Translations under genes and position numbers: made by a program | Shown: positions 49,202-61,252 of the stretch, piece by piece | How positions within the stretch are numbered: position 1 is the first letter of the stretch | Layout of the letters: every line of letters begins with the position of its first letter | Notes under the pieces: generated by a model | What the model saw: the letters and a program-made list of their open reading frames with translations, nothing else | Database searches by the model: none | Told to the model about the DNA's origin: nothing | Assembly (NCBI GenBank): GCA_022820625.1 | Contig: JAJEFE010000095.1 | Location: forward strand, 1-64,000 | Direction: 5' to 3' | Length of the DNA stretch: 64,000 bases | Origin: Gammaproteobacteria bacterium | GTDB taxonomy: Bacteria > Pseudomonadota > Gammaproteobacteria > Steroidobacterales > Rariloculaceae

Positions 49202-49270
49202 GGATTACGGCCTCCATGGGTAGCAGAGGCCATTTTCGCCCGTGAACGCGCGATTGCAAGTCGTATGGGG

Positions 49271-49307
49271 AAAACAGGCGTCGGGCGCGGTGTTGCGCCT
49301 CGACGCC
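49271..49307 (-). terminator. Rho-independent terminator of the TonB-receptor operon
   Basis: A compound stem reads GGCGTCG/CGACGCC (7 bp, plus-strand 49277-49283 and 49301-49307) with inner GCGC/GCGC pairing and a small loop. On the minus strand it is followed by TGTTTT (49276-49271). It sits 28 bases after the receptor gene stop and insulates the ccm operon. Confidence 0.75.
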
Positions 49308-49334
49308 CTGTCGGGTAATTCCCGGGCCGTCAGG

Positions 49335-51989
49335 TCAGAAGAACCATTTGCCGCTGAGGCTGAGGCTGGTGCCTACCCGCTGATTGATGATTCGGGCCAG
49401 TTCGCCCTGGCTGTTGATCTGCCTGAATTCCCGGTCTTCGTCCAGAATGTTGTCAAGCTTTGCCTGCAACTCGATCCGGTCGGTGGGAAAGTACTTGTAA
49501 ACGATTCCAAGCGATTGAAACGGCTCCTCGTAGGCGTCCTCGTTTCGGCCCGTGCCGGCAAAGTAGATGCGCTCGCCGAAGGCGTTGTAGTTCAGGTAGG
49601 CGCTGTGCATGCCGTTGCCGGAGTCGTAACCCAGCGTCGCGTTGAACACCCACTCGGAATGTCCCGTCATTCGGCGTGTGAGATTGGTCAATACGGTGGA
49701 GAGATTGGGATCGAGCCTGATCTCCGAATCGCTGAGGGTCATGTTGCCGGTGAGGAACAATCCGGCCGGCAATTCCTTCAGTCCCTCCAGTTCGATTCCG
49801 GAAATCTCGCCGGATTCGGCATTGGCAAAACTCAGGACCACGTCGTCGTCCGACCCGGCTGACCGGATCTGCTCGATGGGTGACTGGATCTCCTTGTAGA
49901 ACAGCGACACCGTCATGTTGTCGCCGCTACCCCAGAAGAACTCGGAACGGATCTCGAAGTTCGAAATCGGCGAGGAAACCAGTGACGGATTGCCCCTGAC
50001 GCGCACATTCAGCTCCGGATCGATATAGACGACGTCCGCGACCTCCCGCAAGTCGGGCCGAACCACCGTCTCACCGAAGCTGAGCCGGACCTGGTACTGG
50101 TCGGTGCCGAAAAGCCCGGCACCGTCGTAGGTCAGTGCCGCCGAACCGAAGATATCGTCTTCCTTGATGGCCAGCCTTTGGTCCGGCTCGTTCAACTGGT
50201 TCTGCAACCTGACGATCGACTGGCCGGTGTAGTCGAGCAGATCGATGGGTAATACCGCCTGCTGATAAGCTTCGTAGCGTCCGCCCACCGTCACGCGCCA
50301 ATTGTCGGTGAACTGTGCATCGACCATGCCGTAACCCGCATCGACCTTCTGTGCGCCGATGTAACTCTCGGTGCCGAACTGGGTGCCCAGCGAGAGATCG
50401 AAACCGTTTTCGGTTGTAAGTCTTCCCGGTACAAGGACATCGCCGGGCGTTCCGGAGAGCACATTGGACAACACCCCCACGGAATTCAGGTTGATGTTGT
50501 ACCCGCGATAGTCGCGATCCTTCTTCAGACCCCACCAGCCACCGGAAACAGAGACGAAAAGTCGGTCTGTTTCTATCGGCAACACCAGGTTTCCACCCCA
50601 GCTCGACTGATTGTCGTCGAGATCGAGAAACGAAAACTTTCCGCTGGACGTGGTTGCCAGTATCTGCGTGCTCAGTTGTTGGCCCGTCGTCGCGTCAAGC
50701 AGCGCGCCGGCCTGGAAATCCGACTCGTTGGGAATGTCCGTGGTGGCCTGACTCTCCGAGAAAAACCAGTCGAACGCCAGGTTCTGAAGTCTCAGCGTTT
50801 CCATGAACCCGGAAAGCAACGGCGTTTCCGCAAACGCATGTTCACCCGATACCTGGGTGAGTTGCAGCTCACGTTGTTCCAGCCGTGTGGAATAGTTCAG
50901 CTTCTGATCCGGAAACTCGTTGTTCTGGTCGAAGCCCCGCGCGATGCTGGCCCGGGCCTCGTCATCCGTCAGCGTGTAAGCCGCCAGCTCGATGGAGTGA
51001 TCGGCGGTATATTCCACGCCCAGGTTCAGGGAAGCGACCGTGCGTTCTTCCCTGACCGTCTGGTCGATGTCGACAAAATTGACCTCCGGGTTTCCGATGC
51101 CTTCGCGGCGTTGGTTCTGATTGCGAAACTTTTCGCCGTAGGTAGCGTTGACGAGCGCACCGAACTGCCAGTTGGCGCCGATATCCCAGACGTTGCCCAG
51201 CGCAATCTTGCCGTCCACATCGGGGTCCAGCGATTCGATACGGGTACCGATGTTGGTATCCAGGCTGTCGATGAGGTCCTGATGAATGGCCATGGCATCG
51301 GAAACGGTAGCCGACGCGTCATTGCCACGCAGCGAGCCGAAAATACTCGCAACACTGATATCCCCGAGGTAGCTGTCGATGGCGTTCCTGATCGTGCCCG
51401 GCAGGGGCGTTGCCCCGCCCGCAAACGTGAGTCCGTCGCCGGAGCTCTCGTTGTTGGATCCCAGGCCAATGGACGCTTCAAGCACAGCGTCACTGGGAAC
51501 GCTGGTGGTGCGGATATCGATGGCACCCCCGCCGAAGCTCGCAGGCTGATCGGGTGAGGGGGACTTCTGTATCTTGATGGACTCGACGATGGACGTGGGA
51601 AACAGATCCAGCGGAATGACGCTGCGTGTCAGTTCCGGGGAAGGCACAGCCGCCCTGTTTACCGTGACGCTGGAGTACCGTTCGCCAAGGCCACGCACAT
51701 AGACGAACTTTCCGTCTACCACCGTCAGTCCAGGTACCCGGCGCAGGGCCGCCGCAATGTCGGAATCACCAGCGCGGGCAATGACTTCGGCACCAAGGAA
51801 GTCCGCCGAAAACGGCACGGTGATGCGCTCCAAAACCAGCGATTCCGCGGCGCTGAGGAAGCGGCCGACAACGACCACTTCCTCGATCTCGGCTTGGGCG
51901 TCGCCCTCAGGTTCGGCGGTTTCGTCCTGCGCCCAGCCCGCCAGCGGGAAGGCGGATAGCAGCAGCGCAATCAGTAGGGATTTCTTCAT
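49335..51989 (-). CDS. TonB-dependent outer-membrane receptor
   Basis: 884 residues: a signal peptide ending near AGWAQ, a TonB box-like EEVVVVG, a plug domain (about 50-170) with ALRRVPGLTVVDGKFVYVRG and IKIQKSPSPDQPASFGGGAI, and a 22-strand barrel ending in Phe (SLSGKWFF). It would import a scarce ligand using TonB energy. The beta-helix lipoprotein gene precedes it by 5 bases in the same operon, suggesting a surface ligand-capture partner. The ligand is unknown. Confidence 0.92.
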   Translation of the reverse strand: MKKSLLIALLLSAFPLAGWAQDETAEPEGDAQAEIEEVVVVGRFLSAAESLVLERITVPFSADFLGAEVIARAGDSDIAAALRRVPGLTVVDGKFVYVRGLGERYSSVTVNRAAVPSPELTRSVIPLDLFPTSIVESIKIQKSPSPDQPASFGGGAIDIRTTSVPSDAVLEASIGLGSNNESSGDGLTFAGGATPLPGTIRNAIDSYLGDISVASIFGSLRGNDASATVSDAMAIHQDLIDSLDTNIGTRIESLDPDVDGKIALGNVWDIGANWQFGALVNATYGEKFRNQNQRREGIGNPEVNFVDIDQTVREERTVASLNLGVEYTADHSIELAAYTLTDDEARASIARGFDQNNEFPDQKLNYSTRLEQRELQLTQVSGEHAFAETPLLSGFMETLRLQNLAFDWFFSESQATTDIPNESDFQAGALLDATTGQQLSTQILATTSSGKFSFLDLDDNQSSWGGNLVLPIETDRLFVSVSGGWWGLKKDRDYRGYNINLNSVGVLSNVLSGTPGDVLVPGRLTTENGFDLSLGTQFGTESYIGAQKVDAGYGMVDAQFTDNWRVTVGGRYEAYQQAVLPIDLLDYTGQSIVRLQNQLNEPDQRLAIKEDDIFGSAALTYDGAGLFGTDQYQVRLSFGETVVRPDLREVADVVYIDPELNVRVRGNPSLVSSPISNFEIRSEFFWGSGDNMTVSLFYKEIQSPIEQIRSAGSDDDVVLSFANAESGEISGIELEGLKELPAGLFLTGNMTLSDSEIRLDPNLSTVLTNLTRRMTGHSEWVFNATLGYDSGNGMHSAYLNYNAFGERIYFAGTGRNEDAYEEPFQSLGIVYKYFPTDRIELQAKLDNILDEDREFRQINSQGELARIINQRVGTSLSLSGKWFF

Positions 51990-51994
51990 GTTGC

Positions 51995-53662
51995 TCACGG
52001 TACCAATTGCGCATTCAGACCGACGGCCCATCCAGCCAGCCAGTCGTCCCCGCTGTTTGCGCCGCCGAGGTAGGTCGGCGTCCTGAAGATGCCGCCGAGG
52101 CTCGACGCGTCAAAAAGGGTCACGGTGACCGCAGCGCCCGTTGAGTCCTGAATGCTTCCCAGCGTCCTGTAGGCACGGGTACCCACGCCGCCGTCGAGCA
52201 GCATGGCCATGGGCAGGTTGTCGATGACATGGTTGTTGGCATTCCGGTTGTCGGTACCCACCGAGCCGGCCAGCCAGTCGTGCACATTGAAGTTGTCCCG
52301 ATTTGTCTTGACCGGTTCGGTGCAGGCGATCAGGTTGCTGCTTGCCCGGCTGGTTCCGTCGAGCGCCGCGTCGCCGGTTTGCGGGCCTTCCGTGTCGTGC
52401 AACTCCAGGCACTCATTACTGGCCATGCCGTCGGCATTGGAGGTGATGATCGAGTTGTACATCTCGAAGAACGTGCCTTCACGGTAGAGCGGCCCTTCCG
52501 AGTCACCCTTGGAACTGGGATTGGTGCCGGCTCCCTCGTCGATGTTCGACGTGACGCAGGTCAGATTCGAAATGCGCAACTTGGTGGTGGGCGTGAAACC
52601 GTCGTCGCGATTCCCGCCGGTATTGTCGCCTTCGATGCAGCGGTTGCCGCCGGAGGTGTGGACGACGACCGCGTACTGGATGTCGCCGTTGTAGCCCTCT
52701 GAGTAGTCGATGGAATCGTCGCCGACGTTCACGGCCACGATGTGATCCATGTTCACCGCGCCGCCGAACATCTCGAAACCGTCGTCCTGGGATGTGTACG
52801 TCTGCACGTGACTGATGGTGGTGCCGCTGCCGACCGCATTCAGCGTCAGCGCGTTGAGCTCGTCGCCGTCGACGACCTCGTAGCCCGCGTGCTTGACGAC
52901 CACGTAGCGCAGCACACCCGAGTCTTCGGCATTGTTGTTCCCGCCATAGGTCGCCGGGCGTCCTTCAGCGGTGACGTGACAGTTGTGGACGTTGTTGGAC
53001 GTTCCGTCAAAGTCGCTGGCGCCGGAGCCGGATCCCGTCGATGTGCCGTCGTGGCACTTGTTGGTTCGGCCATTGCCGTTGATCTGCAGTCCGCCCCACT
53101 GGCCGCGGTCGCTCTCGGTGGCCGTGTCCAGGATCGCGTCCTCGTCAGACGTAAACGTAATCGGATTACCCGCCGTGCCCTCCGCGAAAATCTGCGAACC
53201 TCGCGCGATCCGCACGTAGCTGTCCTGGGCCTCGAAAACCATGGTGTTGCCCGCAGCGATCGTCAGGCGCGTCCCCTCGCCCTCCTGGGGGATTCGCTTG
53301 CCGGTGGCGGCGGCGTTTACGTCGACGTCCTCGCCGATGTACAGGCTGTCTACGAAAATGTGCATGCCGCCGTTATCCAGCGCGGAAAAGGTGATGGCGC
53401 TGACGGTGATCGGACGCGTATCGCTCACGAACAGCGAGTCGTAAACGCAATTGCCGCCGGTGTGTTCGCCCTGAAATGTCTGGCCGGCTTCCGTATAGCT
53501 GGCGCAGGGGTTCTCGACCTCCACGGCGCCCGTCGTCGTCGACGAATTGTCCGTGGACGTGGAATTGTCGACTGTGGTAGGACTCAGAACAATGTCGCCG
53601 CTGTCGCACGCTGCGAGCCCGGCGGCCAATGCAATCAGAGTCAGGACGTGCCTGTATTCCAT
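51995..53662 (-). CDS. Beta-helix lipoprotein paired with a TonB receptor
   Basis: 555 residues. The signal peptide ends in lipobox GLAAC (Cys near 19), followed by a Ser/Thr/Asp-rich linker. The body has many short Gly/Asn/Asp-rich repeats such as GNPITFTSDEDA, DRGQWGGLQINGNG, GVLRYVVVKHAGYE and DDGFEMFGGAVNMDH, typical of a right-handed parallel beta-helix. Scattered Cys pairs are present. It is probably an outer-membrane surface lipoprotein working with the receptor. AGGAG before ATG 53662 supports this start; the frame is open 100 codons upstream. No enzymatic motif was recognised. Confidence 0.8.
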   Translation of the reverse strand: MEYRHVLTLIALAAGLAACDSGDIVLSPTTVDNSTSTDNSSTTTGAVEVENPCASYTEAGQTFQGEHTGGNCVYDSLFVSDTRPITVSAITFSALDNGGMHIFVDSLYIGEDVDVNAAATGKRIPQEGEGTRLTIAAGNTMVFEAQDSYVRIARGSQIFAEGTAGNPITFTSDEDAILDTATESDRGQWGGLQINGNGRTNKCHDGTSTGSGSGASDFDGTSNNVHNCHVTAEGRPATYGGNNNAEDSGVLRYVVVKHAGYEVVDGDELNALTLNAVGSGTTISHVQTYTSQDDGFEMFGGAVNMDHIVAVNVGDDSIDYSEGYNGDIQYAVVVHTSGGNRCIEGDNTGGNRDDGFTPTTKLRISNLTCVTSNIDEGAGTNPSSKGDSEGPLYREGTFFEMYNSIITSNADGMASNECLELHDTEGPQTGDAALDGTSRASSNLIACTEPVKTNRDNFNVHDWLAGSVGTDNRNANNHVIDNLPMAMLLDGGVGTRAYRTLGSIQDSTGAAVTVTLFDASSLGGIFRTPTYLGGANSGDDWLAGWAVGLNAQLVP

Positions 53663-53798
53663 GGATTCAATCTCCTGTTGGACGGTAAAATTTCGTACCT
53701 GATAGAACTTGAAATTCAGGGGCTGGCCCTCATCGGAATCACCAAAAGAGCGGCAATTGAAGGCCGAAAACCCATGGGTGCACAGTAGAATCCTCAGG

Positions 53799-54853: not shown

Positions 54854-55019
54854 CGAGGTGCCTTCGGTGCAGTGCGTGCCACGCGTACTTCTCCCTCCGC
54901 CATGGTGCGCTCAACCTAGTTTCAGGGCAGGCTTGCTGCGCCGCGCCCATGGCCCTCTAGTCTCGCTCCGGGTGCAATCGCATGTCAAACGCCAAAACCG
55001 GCGCCTGACTGCAATTACT

Positions 55020-55047
55020 TTGTGCGCGTTTCCTTTCGCTATACAAT
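55020..55047 (+). promoter_or_regulatory. Promoter of the tRNA-Leu gene
   Basis: TTGTGC (55020-55025), a 16-base spacer and TACAAT (55042-55047), followed after 13 bases by the tRNA start at 55061. The same promoter, with small changes, occurs again at 56823-56850. Confidence 0.7.
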
Positions 55048-55060
55048 GTCGTCGCGAAGC

Positions 55061-55385
55061 GCCCGGGTGGCGGAATTGGTAGACGCAAGGGACTTGGCGA
55101 ATTGAGCACTCAGGCCGGAAACGCCTGTTTGAATGGAGTCAAATTCGGGGAAACCTCAGCGCATCGAGGCGGTGGCAATCCCGAGCTAAGCCCCGTTCCG
55201 CAACCGGATCGGGGAAAGTGTAGAGACTTGACGGCTCCTGCCTAACCCGTCCACGCGACGGTACGGCAAAGAGAAAGTCCAGACCACAAATGCGCCGTTC
55301 GCCGGCGCAGCAGCGAAAGCTGTAGCGGGTAAGAAAATCCCTCGGAGGCAACTCCATGCCGGTTCGAGTCCGGCCCCGGGCACCA
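55061..55385 (+). tRNA. tRNA-Leu(UAA) interrupted by a group I intron
   Basis: Exon 1 is 55061-55095 and exon 2 is 55334-55385. The spliced tRNA folds fully. Acceptor is GCCCGGG (55061-55067) with CCCGGGC (55375-55381), then discriminator A and encoded CCA. Anticodon stem is AGGGA (55088-55092) with TCCCT (55338-55342), with loop C-U-U-A-A-A-A, so the anticodon is UAA split after U34. The long class II variable arm is GGAG/CTCC with a GCAA loop. The T arm is GCCGG-TTCGAGT-CCGGC. A 22-base hairpin (55395-55416) follows but overlaps the next gene's end and lacks a T-run. Confidence 0.95.
55096..55333 (+). ncRNA. Group I intron (IC3-like) in tRNA-Leu(UAA)
   Basis: 238 nt, inserted after U34 and ending in the required G. 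P1 pairs exon CUU with GAG (55104-55106), giving the U-G splice pair. Helices read by eye: P2 CAGGC/GCCTG (55111-55115, 55123-55127), P4 TTCGGG/CCCGAG (55144-55149, 55180-55185), P5 CCTC/GAGG, P6 CCCCG/CGGGG (55191-55195, 55210-55214), P7 GACTT/AAGTC (55225-55229, 55275-55279), P8 CCGTC/GACGG (55247-55251, 55257-55261), P9 TGCGCCG/CGGCGCA (55291-55309) and a CAGC-GAAA-GCTG hairpin. P, Q, R and S core elements match those of cyanobacterial tRNA-Leu introns as I recall them. There is no open reading frame inside, so no homing endonuclease. Confidence 0.93.
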
Positions 55386-55397
55386 GACCATCCGCCG

Positions 55398-56741
55398 TTA
55401 CTCCTGCCAGTGACGGGCGATCAGGCGGCCGGTTCGGCGCCCGATCGCGCACGAGCAACCGGTTCCGGCGCCGCTCAGGTAATCTCCAACGTAGTAGATG
55501 TTCTTTGGCCCGGCCTCCTGGGTTGCGAGAAACTCGCGCACCTTGCGGATCTGTCCGGTCGGAAATTCCGGGGTGATGTAACCGTTGTACTGAACGACCG
55601 TCTCGCGAATCTGCTTGCCGATTTCCGGGTATAGCTCGCGGATACAGTCGGTTGCAAAAGCCTCCAGATTCTCGCCGTTGTCCGCGATGTAGTGCTGCAG
55701 TCGTTCCGCCTTGATGCTGACCCACAGACGCGGCGGCTTGCCGTCCTTGTCCGGATCGCCCGGATAGAACTTGTAGAAGTTCAACGGTGTTTGGGTATCC
55801 CGCGTGAAATACAGCCCGTGGACCTTGTCGACTTCATGGTTCAGTACGTATGTGACCATGCCGAATTGGCAGTACGGCACGCCGGCTTCGAAAAACCGCT
55901 GTTCCCATCGGGCCTTGTCCGCAACGATCTGCAAAACGCGGTTGCCGGGCGTGGCCATGATCACGATATCCACCTCGATCGATTCCCGGCCATCCGGCGT
56001 GTCGTAATGGATTCGCCTGCCCCGGCCGTTGTCCGACCGGACGATACGGGTGACGCGGGAATTCAGTCGAACGTCTAGCATGTTCGCGAGCGCACGTGTC
56101 AGAAAGCCGATGCCGTCCTTGAAACAGTAGCCGTCTCGTTCCTTGATGTAGGCCACCCGCGCGAGAAACACGGCCTTCGAAAGCTGCTCCATGTTGTACG
56201 CGAGGGCTACGTTGAACAGAGGAGAAACCACGTATTCGAGAAAATCCTTGCCGACCTTGCGCGTCAGGTATTCCGACAGGCTCTCGTCGTCGAAATCGGC
56301 GGCCGTGTGTATCAGGCACGGATCGACCCGGCGCCGGGCCCGTCCGATATCGGGAAGGAGGGACGCCAGCCGCAACTTCGATCTCAGGCTCAGTACCGGC
56401 GACGTGAGCAACTCGTACCGGGTGGGGGCGTTGCTCATCGGGTACTGAACCTTGCCGTCCGTCGCGGTGCCGGTGCCGAAGCTGGAAAGCTTTTCCAGGC
56501 AATCGCCGTGCCCGAGTTCATCGCACAGGTCGAACATCTCGTGATACCAGGCATTCAGGCCACTGGCGCCGGTGATGTTCATGAACGACCCGACCTTTTC
56601 CTCAGCCATACGGCCGCCGGGCAAGTGCTTTTCTTCGAGCACCGTTACCGTAAACCCTGCCTTCTGGAGTTCGTACGCGGTCGACAGTCCGGCGATACCG
56701 GAGCCCACGACAACCGCATTTCTGGAAGACTTCCGGATCAA
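55398..56741 (-). CDS. FAD-dependent amine-oxidase/phytoene-desaturase-like oxidoreductase
   Basis: 447 residues. The N-terminal dinucleotide-binding motif is VVVGSGIAGLSTAYELQKAG then VLEEKHLPGGRM; the C-terminal FAD motif is NIYYVGDYLSGAGTGCSCAI. Overall it resembles the protoporphyrinogen oxidase/carotenoid desaturase/amine oxidase group; the substrate is unclear. The start is TTG at 56741 with GGAGA just upstream. It is flanked on both sides by copies of the tRNA-Leu promoter and 5' end, so it may have arrived or been bracketed by a recombination event. Confidence 0.82.
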   Translation of the reverse strand: MIRKSSRNAVVVGSGIAGLSTAYELQKAGFTVTVLEEKHLPGGRMAEEKVGSFMNITGASGLNAWYHEMFDLCDELGHGDCLEKLSSFGTGTATDGKVQYPMSNAPTRYELLTSPVLSLRSKLRLASLLPDIGRARRRVDPCLIHTAADFDDESLSEYLTRKVGKDFLEYVVSPLFNVALAYNMEQLSKAVFLARVAYIKERDGYCFKDGIGFLTRALANMLDVRLNSRVTRIVRSDNGRGRRIHYDTPDGRESIEVDIVIMATPGNRVLQIVADKARWEQRFFEAGVPYCQFGMVTYVLNHEVDKVHGLYFTRDTQTPLNFYKFYPGDPDKDGKPPRLWVSIKAERLQHYIADNGENLEAFATDCIRELYPEIGKQIRETVVQYNGYITPEFPTGQIRKVREFLATQEAGPKNIYYVGDYLSGAGTGCSCAIGRRTGRLIARHWQE

Positions 56742-56822
56742 GGGATTCTCCGATTCAGCCGCCGCTCGACGTCGACATTCGACTCGGCTTCGACCGTTCC
56801 TACTCGTGCCACTGGCCGTATT

Positions 56823-56850
56823 TTGTGCGCGTTTTCTTCCACTTTACAAT
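56823..56850 (+). promoter_or_regulatory. Second copy of the tRNA-Leu promoter, now upstream of an amidohydrolase gene
   Basis: TTGTGC (56823-56828), 16 bases and TACAAT (56845-56850) repeat the tRNA-Leu promoter almost exactly, including the shared stretch TTTGTGCGCGTTT. No intact tRNA follows. The next gene starts at 56914, so the promoter probably drives it. Confidence 0.6.
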
Positions 56851-56865
56851 GGGGCATCGCCCGGC

Positions 56866-56895
56866 ACCGCGGTGGCGGAATCGGGGCGCAACGCA
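56866..56895 (+). pseudogene. Degenerate 5' fragment of tRNA-Leu
   Basis: The stretch containing GGTGGCGGAATC (56871-56882) then GGGGCGCAACGCA matches the tRNA-Leu 5' exon (GGTGGCGGAATT then GGTAGACGCA at 55066-55087) with changes. It sits at nearly the same distance from its -10 box (21 versus 19 bases). The acceptor, anticodon and 3' parts cannot be recognised. It looks like a decayed partial duplicate. Confidence 0.5.
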
Positions 56896-56913
56896 GGCTG
56901 AGAGCGGGGAACG

Positions 56914-58422
56914 ATGATGAAAACACTCACAGGAATCCATCGCCACCAAGGAACATTCTGCCTGGCCCTCGCGCTTCTGTGGGTCGAAACTCTTGGCTTG
57001 AGCGGCTGCACCGAGACACCAGCCCCGGAGTTCGATCTGGTCATTCTGGGTGGTCGTGTCATGGACCCCGAGACCGGGCTTGATGCCGTACGCAACGTGG
57101 GGATCGACGACGGCCGGATCGCCATGATCAGCGAGCAAAGTCTGGTGGGCCGGGACACGATAGAGGCTACGGGTCTGGTGGTAGCTCCCGGGTTTATCGA
57201 TCTGCATGCGCATGGCCAGGATCCCGTCAGTAACCGGCTCCAGGCACAGGATGGGGTGACGACGGCTCTGGAGATGGAAGTCGGGGTCTACCCGGTAGGT
57301 GCATGGCTGGCCTCCCGGGAAGGAACAGCGCTCATTCACTACGGCGCCACGGTTGGCCACTGGCCGGCTCGCGTCAAACTGGTGGATGGCCTGGACGTCG
57401 GGCACTGGCCGACAGTTTCGGCCGAGGAGGCCAGCCGGATGGACGCAGGGAACTATGCCTACGAGCCTCTCTCCGAAGATCGGATCGACGAGCTTGGCCA
57501 GCTGATGGAGACCGGATTGCAGGAGGGCGCTCTGGGTCTGGGTTTCGGGATCACCTACACGCCCGGAGCCTCCAGGCTCGAGATCATGAGGCTGTTCCAG
57601 CTGGCCGAGCGGCAGGGCGTAGCCGCATACGTCCACCTTCGCGCAGAAGACTCCGGCGGCATCCTGGGAGGTTTTCAGGAAGTCATCGCCCTGGCCGCCA
57701 GCACGGGAGCCTCCGTCCACATCGTGCACTTGAACAGCAGCGCCGACGAGGAAGCCCGGGTAGCAATGGAAATGATACGCGGTGCAGTGAGCCGTGGCCT
57801 GGACATCACCACCGAGTCCTACCCTTACACAGCGGGTTCGACCGCGATCGAGTCGGCCTATTTTGATTCCTGGGAGGGGCTGTCCGACGACGAGTACGGA
57901 CGCCTCCAATGGGCTGCCACCGGAGAACGATTGACTGCCGAATCCTTCACCAGGTACCGGGAAGAAGGCGGCTGGGTGATCATCCACGGCCGCCAGGAAG
58001 ACACCAACGAGTGGATCGTGGCCCAACCCGACGTCATCGTGGCCAGCGATGGCATCCCGTTTCTCTTTGGGCCCGCACATCCTCGCGGGGCCGGCACTTA
58101 CGCCCGGGTGCTGGGGCATTACAGCAGGGACCGCCAGGCGCTCACGCTGATGGACGCCCTGAGCAAGATGACCATCCAGCCGGCACGACGGCTGGAAGCC
58201 GTGGCGCCGGTGATGCAAGGGAAAGGAAGAGTGCAGGAAGGCGCCGATGCCGATCTGACACTCTTCGATCCTGCCCGTATTCTGGACCGCTCAACCTACA
58301 CTCGGGGCGACATCCCATCCGAGGGAATCCAGCACGTGCTGGTGGGCGGAACACCCGTGGTCCGTGACGGTCAGTTGGTGGAGGGGGTCTTCCCCGGCCG
58401 GGCAATAACGGGCGCACCGTGA
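56914..58422 (+). CDS. Amidohydrolase lipoprotein, D-aminoacylase-like
   Basis: 502 residues. A signal peptide with lipobox GLSGC (Cys near 32) predicts a lipoprotein. The amidohydrolase domain has the metal motif PGFIDLHAHGQD (about 92-103), conserved His in YVHLRAED and IVHLNSSA, and the Asp in IVASDGIPFLFGP. This layout suits N-acyl-D-amino-acid deacylases and relatives. GGGGAA precedes tandem ATGs at 56914 and 56917. The apparent promoter derives from the duplicated tRNA-Leu region. Its end borders a truncated Rieske oxygenase on the other strand. Confidence 0.82.
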   Translation: MMKTLTGIHRHQGTFCLALALLWVETLGLSGCTETPAPEFDLVILGGRVMDPETGLDAVRNVGIDDGRIAMISEQSLVGRDTIEATGLVVAPGFIDLHAHGQDPVSNRLQAQDGVTTALEMEVGVYPVGAWLASREGTALIHYGATVGHWPARVKLVDGLDVGHWPTVSAEEASRMDAGNYAYEPLSEDRIDELGQLMETGLQEGALGLGFGITYTPGASRLEIMRLFQLAERQGVAAYVHLRAEDSGGILGGFQEVIALAASTGASVHIVHLNSSADEEARVAMEMIRGAVSRGLDITTESYPYTAGSTAIESAYFDSWEGLSDDEYGRLQWAATGERLTAESFTRYREEGGWVIIHGRQEDTNEWIVAQPDVIVASDGIPFLFGPAHPRGAGTYARVLGHYSRDRQALTLMDALSKMTIQPARRLEAVAPVMQGKGRVQEGADADLTLFDPARILDRSTYTRGDIPSEGIQHVLVGGTPVVRDGQLVEGVFPGRAITGAP

Positions 58423-58429
58423 TCCTGAA

Positions 58430-58576
58430 GTTCGGAGACGATGTATTGTTCTCGTCGGTCGGCGTCAATTGCCTGCCGATTTCTCTCGACAAGGCCGCGA
58501 CGTACCAGGCGTTGCGCAAGTAGGTTGTGGAATGCGAGCCGACGTCCCGGTCAGTCGTAATAGCCAATTTCGTCAC
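58430..58576 (-). pseudogene. Truncated N terminus of a Rieske-type oxygenase
   Basis: Read on the minus strand, 58525-58465 encodes TYLRNAWYVAALSREIGRQL, the conserved opening of vanillate O-demethylase-type Rieske oxygenases. A GTG at 58576, overlapping the end of the CMD gene, is a possible original start. Homology fades by about 58455; the Rieske Cys-His motifs and everything further are missing, replaced by the end of the amidohydrolase gene. It would have been the next gene of the minus-strand operon. Confidence 0.5.
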
Positions 58577-59123
58577 CGTCCGTCGTCACGCCCAGACCGT
58601 TCAGGAGGCGATTCGAGTAATTGAAGTATGCCACGACCTGGTTGACCTCGAGAATCTCTCCATCGCTGCAACCGGAGTCGCGCAAGCGCTCGACATCGCG
58701 ACGTGCCATCTGCCCTACCCTGGTCGTCAGCTTCTCCGCATAACGCAGGAGTTCCAGTTCCCGGCCGCTGAAGACACGCTCCGGCCTTCCGGCCTGAAGC
58801 GCCTCGAGGATGGCATCGGCCCGATCCTGGTCGCCGAGCAATCGCCGGGCATTGGCAAAATGATGCGTGAGGCTGTATGCGCAGTCGTTCCTGATGCTGG
58901 TATAGGACGCAACGACTTCAAGGAACCAGCCCGGAAGCGTGTTGTCGGGGTGATGCAGGACGCTTTTATACAGTTCGATGTGGCCATGCATCGTATGCGG
59001 CCGCAATGAGTGCGCCTTCATGACGTTGTCGACCGTGCCGTGAGGCGTTTTCGCCCGTTCGTACATCTCCCCGAGCGCACCCGTGGCGTCGCGAATTTCA
59101 ATGGTCTTTATCCAGGCAGTCAT
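58551..59123 (-). CDS. Carboxymuconolactone decarboxylase / AhpD-like family protein
   Basis: 190 residues, mostly helical, with the AhpD-like core at about 65-105. The usual redox motif C-x-x-C-x-x-x-H reads CAYSLTHHF, so the second Cys is Ser; classic AhpD peroxidase chemistry is therefore doubtful. Uncharacterised 'peroxidase-related' members show similar changes. GGAG precedes ATG 59123, five bases after the upstream stop, which supports this start over an earlier in-frame codon. Last intact gene of the secreted-protein operon. Confidence 0.8.
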   Translation of the reverse strand: MTAWIKTIEIRDATGALGEMYERAKTPHGTVDNVMKAHSLRPHTMHGHIELYKSVLHHPDNTLPGWFLEVVASYTSIRNDCAYSLTHHFANARRLLGDQDRADAILEALQAGRPERVFSGRELELLRYAEKLTTRVGQMARRDVERLRDSGCSDGEILEVNQVVAYFNYSNRLLNGLGVTTDGDEIGYYD

Positions 59124-59128
59124 GGCAT

Positions 59129-59869
59129 TTACTCCGCGTCCCTGGCCTCTTCGATGTACGCGCCGCACTCATACTCGAGAATCTGGATATTGCTTTCCTG
59201 GCGGCGGTAAAGGGGCATGCTCATGGTCCAGGGCCTTGAGAACACCTTCGGATCCTCGATCGTCGCCTCGTACCGCATGTGATCGGGCCCCGTAAGCGTG
59301 TAACGCTCCACCACGTGCAAGTCCTCGCTGTGGAAGTTGCCCGACCGGTCGAACCACGTCCGATCCGTGAAATGAACGACATCCACAACCAGCGTGTCAC
59401 CCTCCCAATGGGCGCGTGAGTCTCCCATCCACCACTGGATGGGCCCTGGCGGATGTTCGCTGTCGATGTAGATGTTGCGGAACACGTGGGAATACTCGTA
59501 GAGCATCGTGACCTGATTCGCCGTTTGAACGATCTGAAACGGGTATGGCAGGTATGTGATTCGCGGAACGCCGACCATGAAGCATTTCGCCTCCGGATCT
59601 TCCGCAAGACGGTTCTCGTAGTTCTCCCAACGCTGAGCCAGGGCCTCCGGGAGGTACGGAAGCTCGTTGCCCTCCACAACCCCCTGCCCCGCCGGCACAC
59701 CGAGTTCGGCGCCATGATCCTGGATATCCCGGTTGGCCGTGTTGAGCGCCTGCCAGACGCCTCTGAGATCCGGTCGGCCGTCGGCCATGCGGGGGATGTC
59801 CTGAGCCGAGACGTTCGAAGCGCAAAGCGGGATTGCGATCGCCAGGGCAACCGAGGCGACGCGGCACAT
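59129..59869 (-). CDS. Secreted protein of unknown function (paralog of 60338-61252)
   Basis: 246 residues with a signal peptide ending near SNVSAQ. It opens IPRMADGRPDLRGVWQALNT and contains HWEGDTLVVDVVHFTDRTWF and VVERYTLTGPDHMRYEATI. The same order of motifs is found in the protein at 60338-61252, so the two are paralogs. The beta-rich pattern with GRPDLRG/F-SG-W-type start is common among secreted proteins linked to DUF6152, but I know no function. Its start overlaps the DUF6152 stop in ATGA. Confidence 0.75.
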   Translation of the reverse strand: MCRVASVALAIAIPLCASNVSAQDIPRMADGRPDLRGVWQALNTANRDIQDHGAELGVPAGQGVVEGNELPYLPEALAQRWENYENRLAEDPEAKCFMVGVPRITYLPYPFQIVQTANQVTMLYEYSHVFRNIYIDSEHPPGPIQWWMGDSRAHWEGDTLVVDVVHFTDRTWFDRSGNFHSEDLHVVERYTLTGPDHMRYEATIEDPKVFSRPWTMSMPLYRRQESNIQILEYECGAYIEEARDAE

Positions 59870-60270
59870 CAGCGCTCACCCGGCGCGTTGCCGCCGAAGA
59901 GGATCGTGCCGTCGGCGAGCCTGGTTTCTCCCGCGTAGAGTTCGTTGGAACCGTCGCGCGCCGGGAAGCCGCTCACCGTGATCGTCGCCCCGACCGGCAG
60001 GTGCGTACTCCGCCAACCCCTGCGAAAGAGATTGTTCGCGCTGGTGAAGGAAATGATCCACGTCTGCGTGTCGCCGTTCTCACCCTCCACCTCAAAGAAC
60101 ATGCGCGCGTGGGGATTGATCCATTCCATATCCACTATATTGCCGGTGACGGTGACTCGCCGTTCCATGTCGAAACCGACCGCGACGGAATGGTGCGCGT
60201 GACTGCCTGTTGCATACAGGATGGAACCTGCGGCGGCCATCGCCGCCATCATGTGCTTACCCGCCATCAT
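59869..60270 (-). CDS. DUF6152 family periplasmic protein
   Basis: 133 residues with a signal peptide (MMAAMAAAGSILYATGSHA) followed by HHSVAVGFDMERRVTVTGNI and MEWINPHARMFFEV. The HHS start and WINPHA motif are the marks of DUF6152. The mature part is a single small beta-rich domain; the function is unknown. GGGAG precedes ATG 60270. It lies between two paralogous secreted proteins in one operon. Confidence 0.8.
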   Translation of the reverse strand: MMAGKHMMAAMAAAGSILYATGSHAHHSVAVGFDMERRVTVTGNIVDMEWINPHARMFFEVEGENGDTQTWIISFTSANNLFRRGWRSTHLPVGATITVSGFPARDGSNELYAGETRLADGTILFGGNAPGER

Positions 60271-60337
60271 CAAGATGCTCCCACAACCATCATCGTACCG
60301 CTTCCCATGATCGGCACCATGCCACTTGCCATGACCC

Positions 60338-61252
60338 TCACTGTGCCGCCTCCCATGCAGCTTTCATTTCTCTCGCCTGCTCGCCGGTGATGCCGGGATA
60401 GACCCGGTATCCGTTGGCCCGGTACAGCCGCATCGGATCCGCGTTCGTCTCGAAACAGGCCTCCTCCCAGATCTCCGGTACGTTTCGCCTGAACGCGAAC
60501 GCGATGGTGAAGGGTCTGGTGTAGACGTTCGGATCGTCGAACGTCGCCTGATAGTGAATCGTGTCGTCTTCGATCAGGGTGAAACGCTCGACGATGCGGG
60601 CTTCATCGGTGATGAACCGACCCCGCTGGTCGAGCATGTACTTCGCGTTCTGGTTACGGGTTTCGACAACCAGCGTGTCGCCCTCCCAGCGACCCCTGGG
60701 ATCGCCGTTCCACATGGGGATATCGCCGATGTGCGGCCGCCCGTCCAGGGGAATGATCCGATACGGGTGAGTCGTGAGCTGTTCCCCGACCATGACGAGA
60801 TGGGTCGCGTCCTGGATGAACTGGAAGCGGCTGGTCATGTACATGGTCCCGGCAGGGCCCGCCAGGATGCAGGCCGCGTTGTGGTGCAGGTACTGCTCGG
60901 CGTTGATTCTGCTCTGTTCCACGGCCCAGTCCTGCATGGGAACGAGCCCGTCGACCGGGTCGACGACCGCGCTGGGCCCACCGAAGTCGTCCGGTGTCAC
61001 CGGGTGGGCCTCCAGGCTCTCGAAGGCCCAGGCGCGGCGCAGCCAGTAGCCGCTGAAATCGGGACGCCCTTCGGGTGTACTTGGCGGTGTCGCGGTCCTG
61101 GCCGCTTCCAGGGCGCAGGCGTGGAAGATGGCATGGGAATTGTCGGGGCATACCGATCCCTCCACCATGCCCAGGCTGCTGCCGGACTGACCGGATGCCG
61201 GCAGAGCGAACGCCGATACCGAGAGCACAGCCAATGCCGCAATTGCTCTCAT
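60338..61252 (-). CDS. Secreted protein of unknown function (paralog of 59129-59869)
   Basis: 304 residues with a signal peptide ending near PASGQ. EGRPDFSGYWLRRAW opens the mature domain, with GRWEGDTLVVETRNQNAKYM, IVERFTLIEDDTIHYQATFD and VYTRPFTIAF later. These match its smaller paralog in the operon. An extra N-terminal Cys-containing segment and an Ala-rich C-terminal helix distinguish it. The start overlaps the amidase stop in ATGA, so it is translated together with the amidase. Confidence 0.75.
   Translation of the reverse strand: MRAIAALAVLSVSAFALPASGQSGSSLGMVEGSVCPDNSHAIFHACALEAARTATPPSTPEGRPDFSGYWLRRAWAFESLEAHPVTPDDFGGPSAVVDPVDGLVPMQDWAVEQSRINAEQYLHHNAACILAGPAGTMYMTSRFQFIQDATHLVMVGEQLTTHPYRIIPLDGRPHIGDIPMWNGDPRGRWEGDTLVVETRNQNAKYMLDQRGRFITDEARIVERFTLIEDDTIHYQATFDDPNVYTRPFTIAFAFRRNVPEIWEEACFETNADPMRLYRANGYRVYPGITGEQAREMKAAWEAAQ

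Follow-up and report, generated by a model that had tools for sequence, protein, structure and literature searches.

A partial copy of the tRNA-Leu(UAA) promoter and 5' end in front of an amidohydrolase gene in a Rariloculaceae genome

The rnk promoter of E. coli was reportedly placed before citT, in an evolution experiment, by a kilobase-scale tandem duplication that joined whole genes. Papers on this rnk-citT case include PMC5918244 and PMC4718724. Partial tRNA copies are known from a different setting, in which tRNA gene fragments are left as products of mobile element integration (PMC9897764; Islander, PMC4383910). We found no paper on the capture of a tRNA promoter in a literature search limited to the terms tried.

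In this work, we describe a locus that has something in common with both systems. As in the rnk-citT capture, a copy of an existing promoter stands directly upstream of a different gene: it is homologous to a promoter of the same genome, and it lies immediately before an intact gene and points into it. The two cases differ in that the E. coli event was a tandem duplication of kilobase scale, whereas here about 73 nt were copied, part of a tRNA gene included, and the copied promoter is putatively in use. The likeness to integration-derived fragments is that a partial tRNA copy lies near the intact tRNA gene, beside acquired DNA.

The window analysed is a stretch of 64,000 nucleotides of contig JAJEFE010000095.1 (assembly GCA_022820625.1). 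Within it, the promoter, the 5' strand of the acceptor and the D-arm of tRNA-Leu(UAA) (55016-55088) recur in the same orientation at 56819-56891 (table 1). An earlier note on this DNA had claimed a direct repeat of the tRNA-Leu promoter and 5' end about 1.8 kb apart, and both the repeat and its coordinates proved correct. Two blocks align without gaps, 55016-55048 with 56819-56851 (28/33 identical, offset 1803) and 55052-55079 with 56857-56884 (21 of 28 positions, offset 1805). Aligned over the full stretches with two gaps (an insertion and a deletion, each of 2 nt), the copies score 53; in 2,000 dinucleotide shuffles of the intergenic sequence that holds the downstream copy, the mean score was 18.5 (sd 2.3) and the highest 31. 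With its last 12 nt removed, the promoter piece scores 30, which was reached in 0/3,000 shuffles; the tRNA piece by itself scores 26, reached in one of 3,000. Since each half is significant alone, the similarity extends beyond the -10 box.

Table 1. Features around the tRNA-Leu(UAA) repeat, in window coordinates
Feature	Position	Strand	Basis or detail
Original promoter of tRNA-Leu(UAA)	55016..55048	+	-35-like TTGTGC 55020-55025, -10 TACAAT 55042-55047, 16-nt spacer
tRNA-Leu(UAA) gene	55061..55385	+	exons 55061-55095 and 55334-55385; ARAGORN, introns allowed: (taa)i(36,238)
Group I intron, 238 nt, after first anticodon base	55096..55333	+	ARAGORN; Rfam RF00028 (Intron_gpI)
FAD-dependent amine-oxidase-family oxidoreductase, 447 aa	55398..56741	-	Pfam PF01593, E 7e-32
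Second copy: promoter, tRNA-Leu acceptor 5' strand and D-arm	56819..56891	+	-35-like 56823-56828, -10 56845-56850
Amidohydrolase, 502 aa, PRK09061 subfamily, lipoprotein-like N-terminus	56914..58422	+	NCBIfam NF006560, 507.7 bits (cut-off 340)
5' remnant of VanA/Rieske oxygenase gene, about 30 codons, frame broken	58423..58520	-	tblastn to oxygenases after CMD in G014 and G004
Carboxymuconolactone-decarboxylase-like (CMD) gene, right flank	58551..59168	-	Pfam PF02627, TIGR01926

A genome-wide BLAST search with the second copy gave this tRNA gene as its only significant match (E 3.9e-5 and 1.8e-5). The four other tRNA-Leu genes of the genome (GAG, CAA, UAG, CAG) gave no BLAST match, and on that ground another tRNA-Leu was rejected as the source. 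A 19-bp exact match on contig C109 sits in apparently unrelated coding sequence and was also set aside. When the relatives were searched for the second copy together with its surroundings, only weak matches at chance level appeared apart from the tRNA itself.

Promoters have motifs in common, and an independent promoter could come to look like that of the tRNA by chance or convergence. The alignment score, however, falls far outside the shuffle range, and the tRNA-specific head GGTGGCGGAAT stands at the right distance from the -10 box and nowhere else: TACAAT-N(12-28)-GGTGGCGGAAT occurs in 22 related genomes only at the tRNA-Leu(UAA) genes of the present genome (G000), G001 and G005 and at the second copy. 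Likewise, TTTGTGC-N16-TACAAT is limited to two places in the genome, the original promoter and the second copy. Chance or convergence is already refuted as the source of the repeat, and we give an independent look-alike promoter almost no credence.

The earlier note took the first copy for a functional tRNA-Leu and the second for a decayed one, and this distinction holds. ARAGORN reads an intact tRNA-Leu(UAA) at the first copy, and the -10 box of its promoter and the spacing are conserved in the G005 and G001 orthologues. An ordinary scan of the window with introns disallowed found no tRNA, because the intron interrupts this gene. The other leucine isoacceptors of the genome (GAG, CAA, UAG, CAG) were found once each, and the gene is therefore the only tRNA-Leu(UAA) seen in the genome. 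Its intron matches Rfam RF00028 at E 1.2e-8, although the 41.4 bits fall short of the gathering score of 50; judged by its sequence, it is a group I intron of known kind.

Several observations concern this intron in its own right. Within one order, the tRNA-Leu(UAA) orthologues (L007-L024) carry an intron in some genomes and are uninterrupted in others, and they thus offer material for following how the intron was gained and lost. The tRNA-Arg(UCU) gene of the same genome (L002, 1304-1606 on contig C136), within a tRNA cluster of Pro, Arg, His and Lys, has a 226-nt intron; in its 3' part, about 64 nt resemble the tRNA-Leu intron with 75% similarity. Group I introns in tRNA-Leu(TAA) and tRNA-Arg(TCT) are known from Beggiatoaceae (PMC4853749), and in the present genome, too, it is these two isoacceptors that have introns; Beggiatoaceae are, however, another gammaproteobacterial lineage, and the parallel touches the intact original gene and not its partial copy. 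Window positions 55239-55342, comprising the 3' part of the intron and the start of exon 2, give a weak full-length match to the Rfam LOOT RNA (26.4 bits, E 0.02, below threshold), a family possibly akin to group I introns of the tRNA-Leu(UAA) kind.

The second copy was found in this arrangement in one genome only. It is separated from the flank of the oxidoreductase by a stretch at about 56770-56818. The anticodon arm, the intron and the 3' half are missing from it, and what it has of the acceptor and the D-arm is broken; it is therefore no working tRNA gene. The TTGTGC and TACAAT hexamers, on the other hand, are identical in both copies, with 0 changes in 12 positions and the 16-nt spacing kept, and all five changes in the promoter part fall outside them. 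Over its whole length the promoter part has diverged at 5/33 positions, which is not clearly below the 7/28 plus indels of the tRNA part. A simple sigma-70 consensus scan called no site at either copy; we attribute this silence to the strictness of the scan, because the tRNA-Leu of the first copy must be transcribed. The amidohydrolase ATG follows directly downstream of the second copy on the same strand.

Comparison with relatives changes the picture of what is bracketed. As the earlier note had it, a reverse-oriented FAD oxidoreductase gene lies between the repeats, but the relatives give no support to the idea that it is the inserted or duplicated piece: it adjoins the tRNA in G001 and G005 too, and no second copy stands there in G005. 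In G005, which belongs to the same genus, the oxidoreductase orthologue is 89% identical and comes after the same tRNA-Leu(UAA). There, contigs C46 and C5 share an end sequence that joins the tRNA, the oxidoreductase and then directly the CMD gene, without a second copy; some 50 nt there correspond to about 1.8 kb in the window. The tRNA and the oxidoreductase also adjoin in G001, the contig of which stops inside the oxidoreductase. The pairing of tRNA and oxidoreductase is therefore old, and what varies is the segment made up of the second copy and the amidohydrolase. The earlier note had proposed looking in close relatives for the presence or absence of the 1.8-kb segment. Some 1.75 kb are indeed absent from G005, but the missing piece is not the oxidoreductase; it consists of the second copy, the amidohydrolase and the 5' remnant of the Rieske oxygenase.

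Two further differences were seen nearby. On the left, about 4.5 kb (49264-53744, with a TonB-dependent receptor and a 655-aa protein) are absent in G001, where 49263 is joined to 53745, and present in G005. Past the CMD gene, about 2.1 kb (59125-61250, a DUF6152 protein and neighbours) are absent in G005, and the region to the right of the oxidoreductase therefore turns over quickly.

A partial tRNA copy could also be a displaced fragment left behind when a mobile element integrated site-specifically into the 5' part of the tRNA, as tRNA genes are common integration sites and their fragments frequent by-products (PMC9897764). The geometry at this locus is nevertheless different. After entry at the 5' end, the promoter fragment so displaced would be expected upstream of the intact gene, whereas the fragment lies downstream of it, and thus not at the far end of an element in an arrangement that regenerates the tRNA. 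The acquired gene is found beyond the fragment rather than between the copies, and G005 has the oxidoreductase beside the tRNA without a second copy. No integrase was found among the Pfam-scanned proteins around the locus, where small or unmatched open reading frames remain. Site-specific integration into tRNA-Leu is already largely refuted, and we regard it as very improbable; the remark in the earlier note that a duplicated 5' end is unlike the 3'-end type made by integrases is borne out by this decayed promoter and 5' end downstream of an intact gene.

On the far side of the amidohydrolase, directly after its stop codon, lies the remnant of the oxygenase gene on the minus strand, its family assigned by the Pfam VanA_C and Rieske domains of the G014 gene. 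A full-length oxygenase follows the CMD gene in G014 and G004, and an intact relative is found at a separate location in G000, G005 and G001. As a remnant lies beside CMD here and the full gene occupies that place in G014 and G004, it seems that most of an oxygenase gene gave way to the amidohydrolase. The replacement recombination suggested in the earlier note fits this truncated oxygenase. A short plus-strand open reading frame after the amidohydrolase was considered as a gene remnant and discarded; it has no relatives, and the minus-strand reading is the oxygenase remnant.

The amidohydrolase itself is patchily distributed and probably a horizontally moving gene. It is present in three of the 22 genomes of the family, with relatives 84% and 81% identical in G014 and G017, and relatives outside the family are 72-63% identical (an Acidobacteria MAG, 72%; Gemmatimonadetes/Longimicrobiales MAGs, up to 69%). 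Upstream of the relatives in G014 and G017 there is no tRNA sequence. The leader becomes homologous to that of the G014 gene again from about GGAACGATG, immediately beyond the second copy, which places the join of the tRNA-derived piece within about 10-15 nt of the ribosome-binding region of the amidohydrolase.

This abrupt switch also bears on the other route proposed in the earlier note, a tandem duplication of the tRNA-oxidoreductase unit, the second unit of which would later have been deleted and overwritten by the amidohydrolase. The direct orientation would be expected, and the 1.8-kb spacing equals one such unit. Yet the copy stops in the D-arm, and after 56891 there is no trace of the intron, the 3' half of the tRNA or a second oxidoreductase, the sequence turning into the amidohydrolase leader; the sole other remnant is that of the Rieske oxygenase, in its expected place beside CMD. 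These findings speak against a larger tandem duplication, which we consider improbable.

Fourfold-site divergence between G000 and G005 is 0.33-0.39 pairwise, and the second copy differs from the original by 15-25%, which dates the duplication near the split of the two genomes. This date fits a gain in G000 and a loss in G005 alike, and the segment may once have been present in G005. The segment has a short direct repeat, CGACGTC, at either end (near 56770 and 58520), which is compatible with its deletion in G005 or with an end-joining junction. Bases that the second copy shares with G001 and G006, against G000 and G005, were tried as a root and rejected, being too few and all readable as C-to-T or G-to-A decay.

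The same divergence is what neutral debris would show. If the partial duplicate were a leftover of rearrangement with no role, and the amidohydrolase were transcribed from elsewhere or silent, then changes of 15-25% would be about those of one lineage at fourfold sites since the split, and both the broken arms and the occurrence in a single genome would come as no surprise. Against this stand the 12 unchanged hexamer positions with their exact spacing, the end of the copy right at the leader of the gene into which it points, and the intact 502-codon frame of that gene, and we hold such debris to be rather unlikely.

We lean instead towards a reading in which the 73-nt tRNA-Leu copy is the left junction of the replacement of the oxygenase by the amidohydrolase, and probably now the sigma-70-type promoter of the latter. 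A 73-nt stretch of tRNA-Leu(UAA), with promoter, acceptor 5' strand and D-arm, would have been copied 1.8 kb downstream in direct orientation; the acquired amidohydrolase would have replaced most of the Rieske oxygenase gene between the oxidoreductase and CMD; and the copied sequence would have filled the left junction, for example by template switching during repair. Thereafter, the second copy would serve as the putative promoter of the amidohydrolase, the tRNA piece being a non-functional 5' leader. The homology and its extent, the absence of the segment from G005, the oxygenase remnant and the abrupt switch from tRNA-derived sequence to amidohydrolase leader were observed directly. From these we infer that the copying took place in the same event as the gene replacement, and the conserved hexamers and their position suggest that the amidohydrolase is probably transcribed from the copied promoter.

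The partial tRNA-Leu copy before the amidohydrolase is a neat but ordinary local genome rearrangement, a real and small duplication of a promoter and part of a tRNA, and probably a natural promoter capture. With more reserve, one may suppose that a short tRNA tract, copied from 1.8 kb away during repair, gave a newly arrived foreign gene a ready promoter in one step, and that horizontally acquired genes can be switched on by promoters donated locally by tRNA genes; we put this forward tentatively, as a possibility that we ourselves rather doubt. If the copied promoter is unused, the locus reflects routine local gene turnover. The locus also shows that a tRNA fragment is not necessarily the mark of an integrated element. 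Should the copied promoter be in use, the locus would be a natural and roughly datable case of a foreign gene gaining expression, in that a very short tract with a housekeeping promoter was duplicated from a template at the insertion junction.
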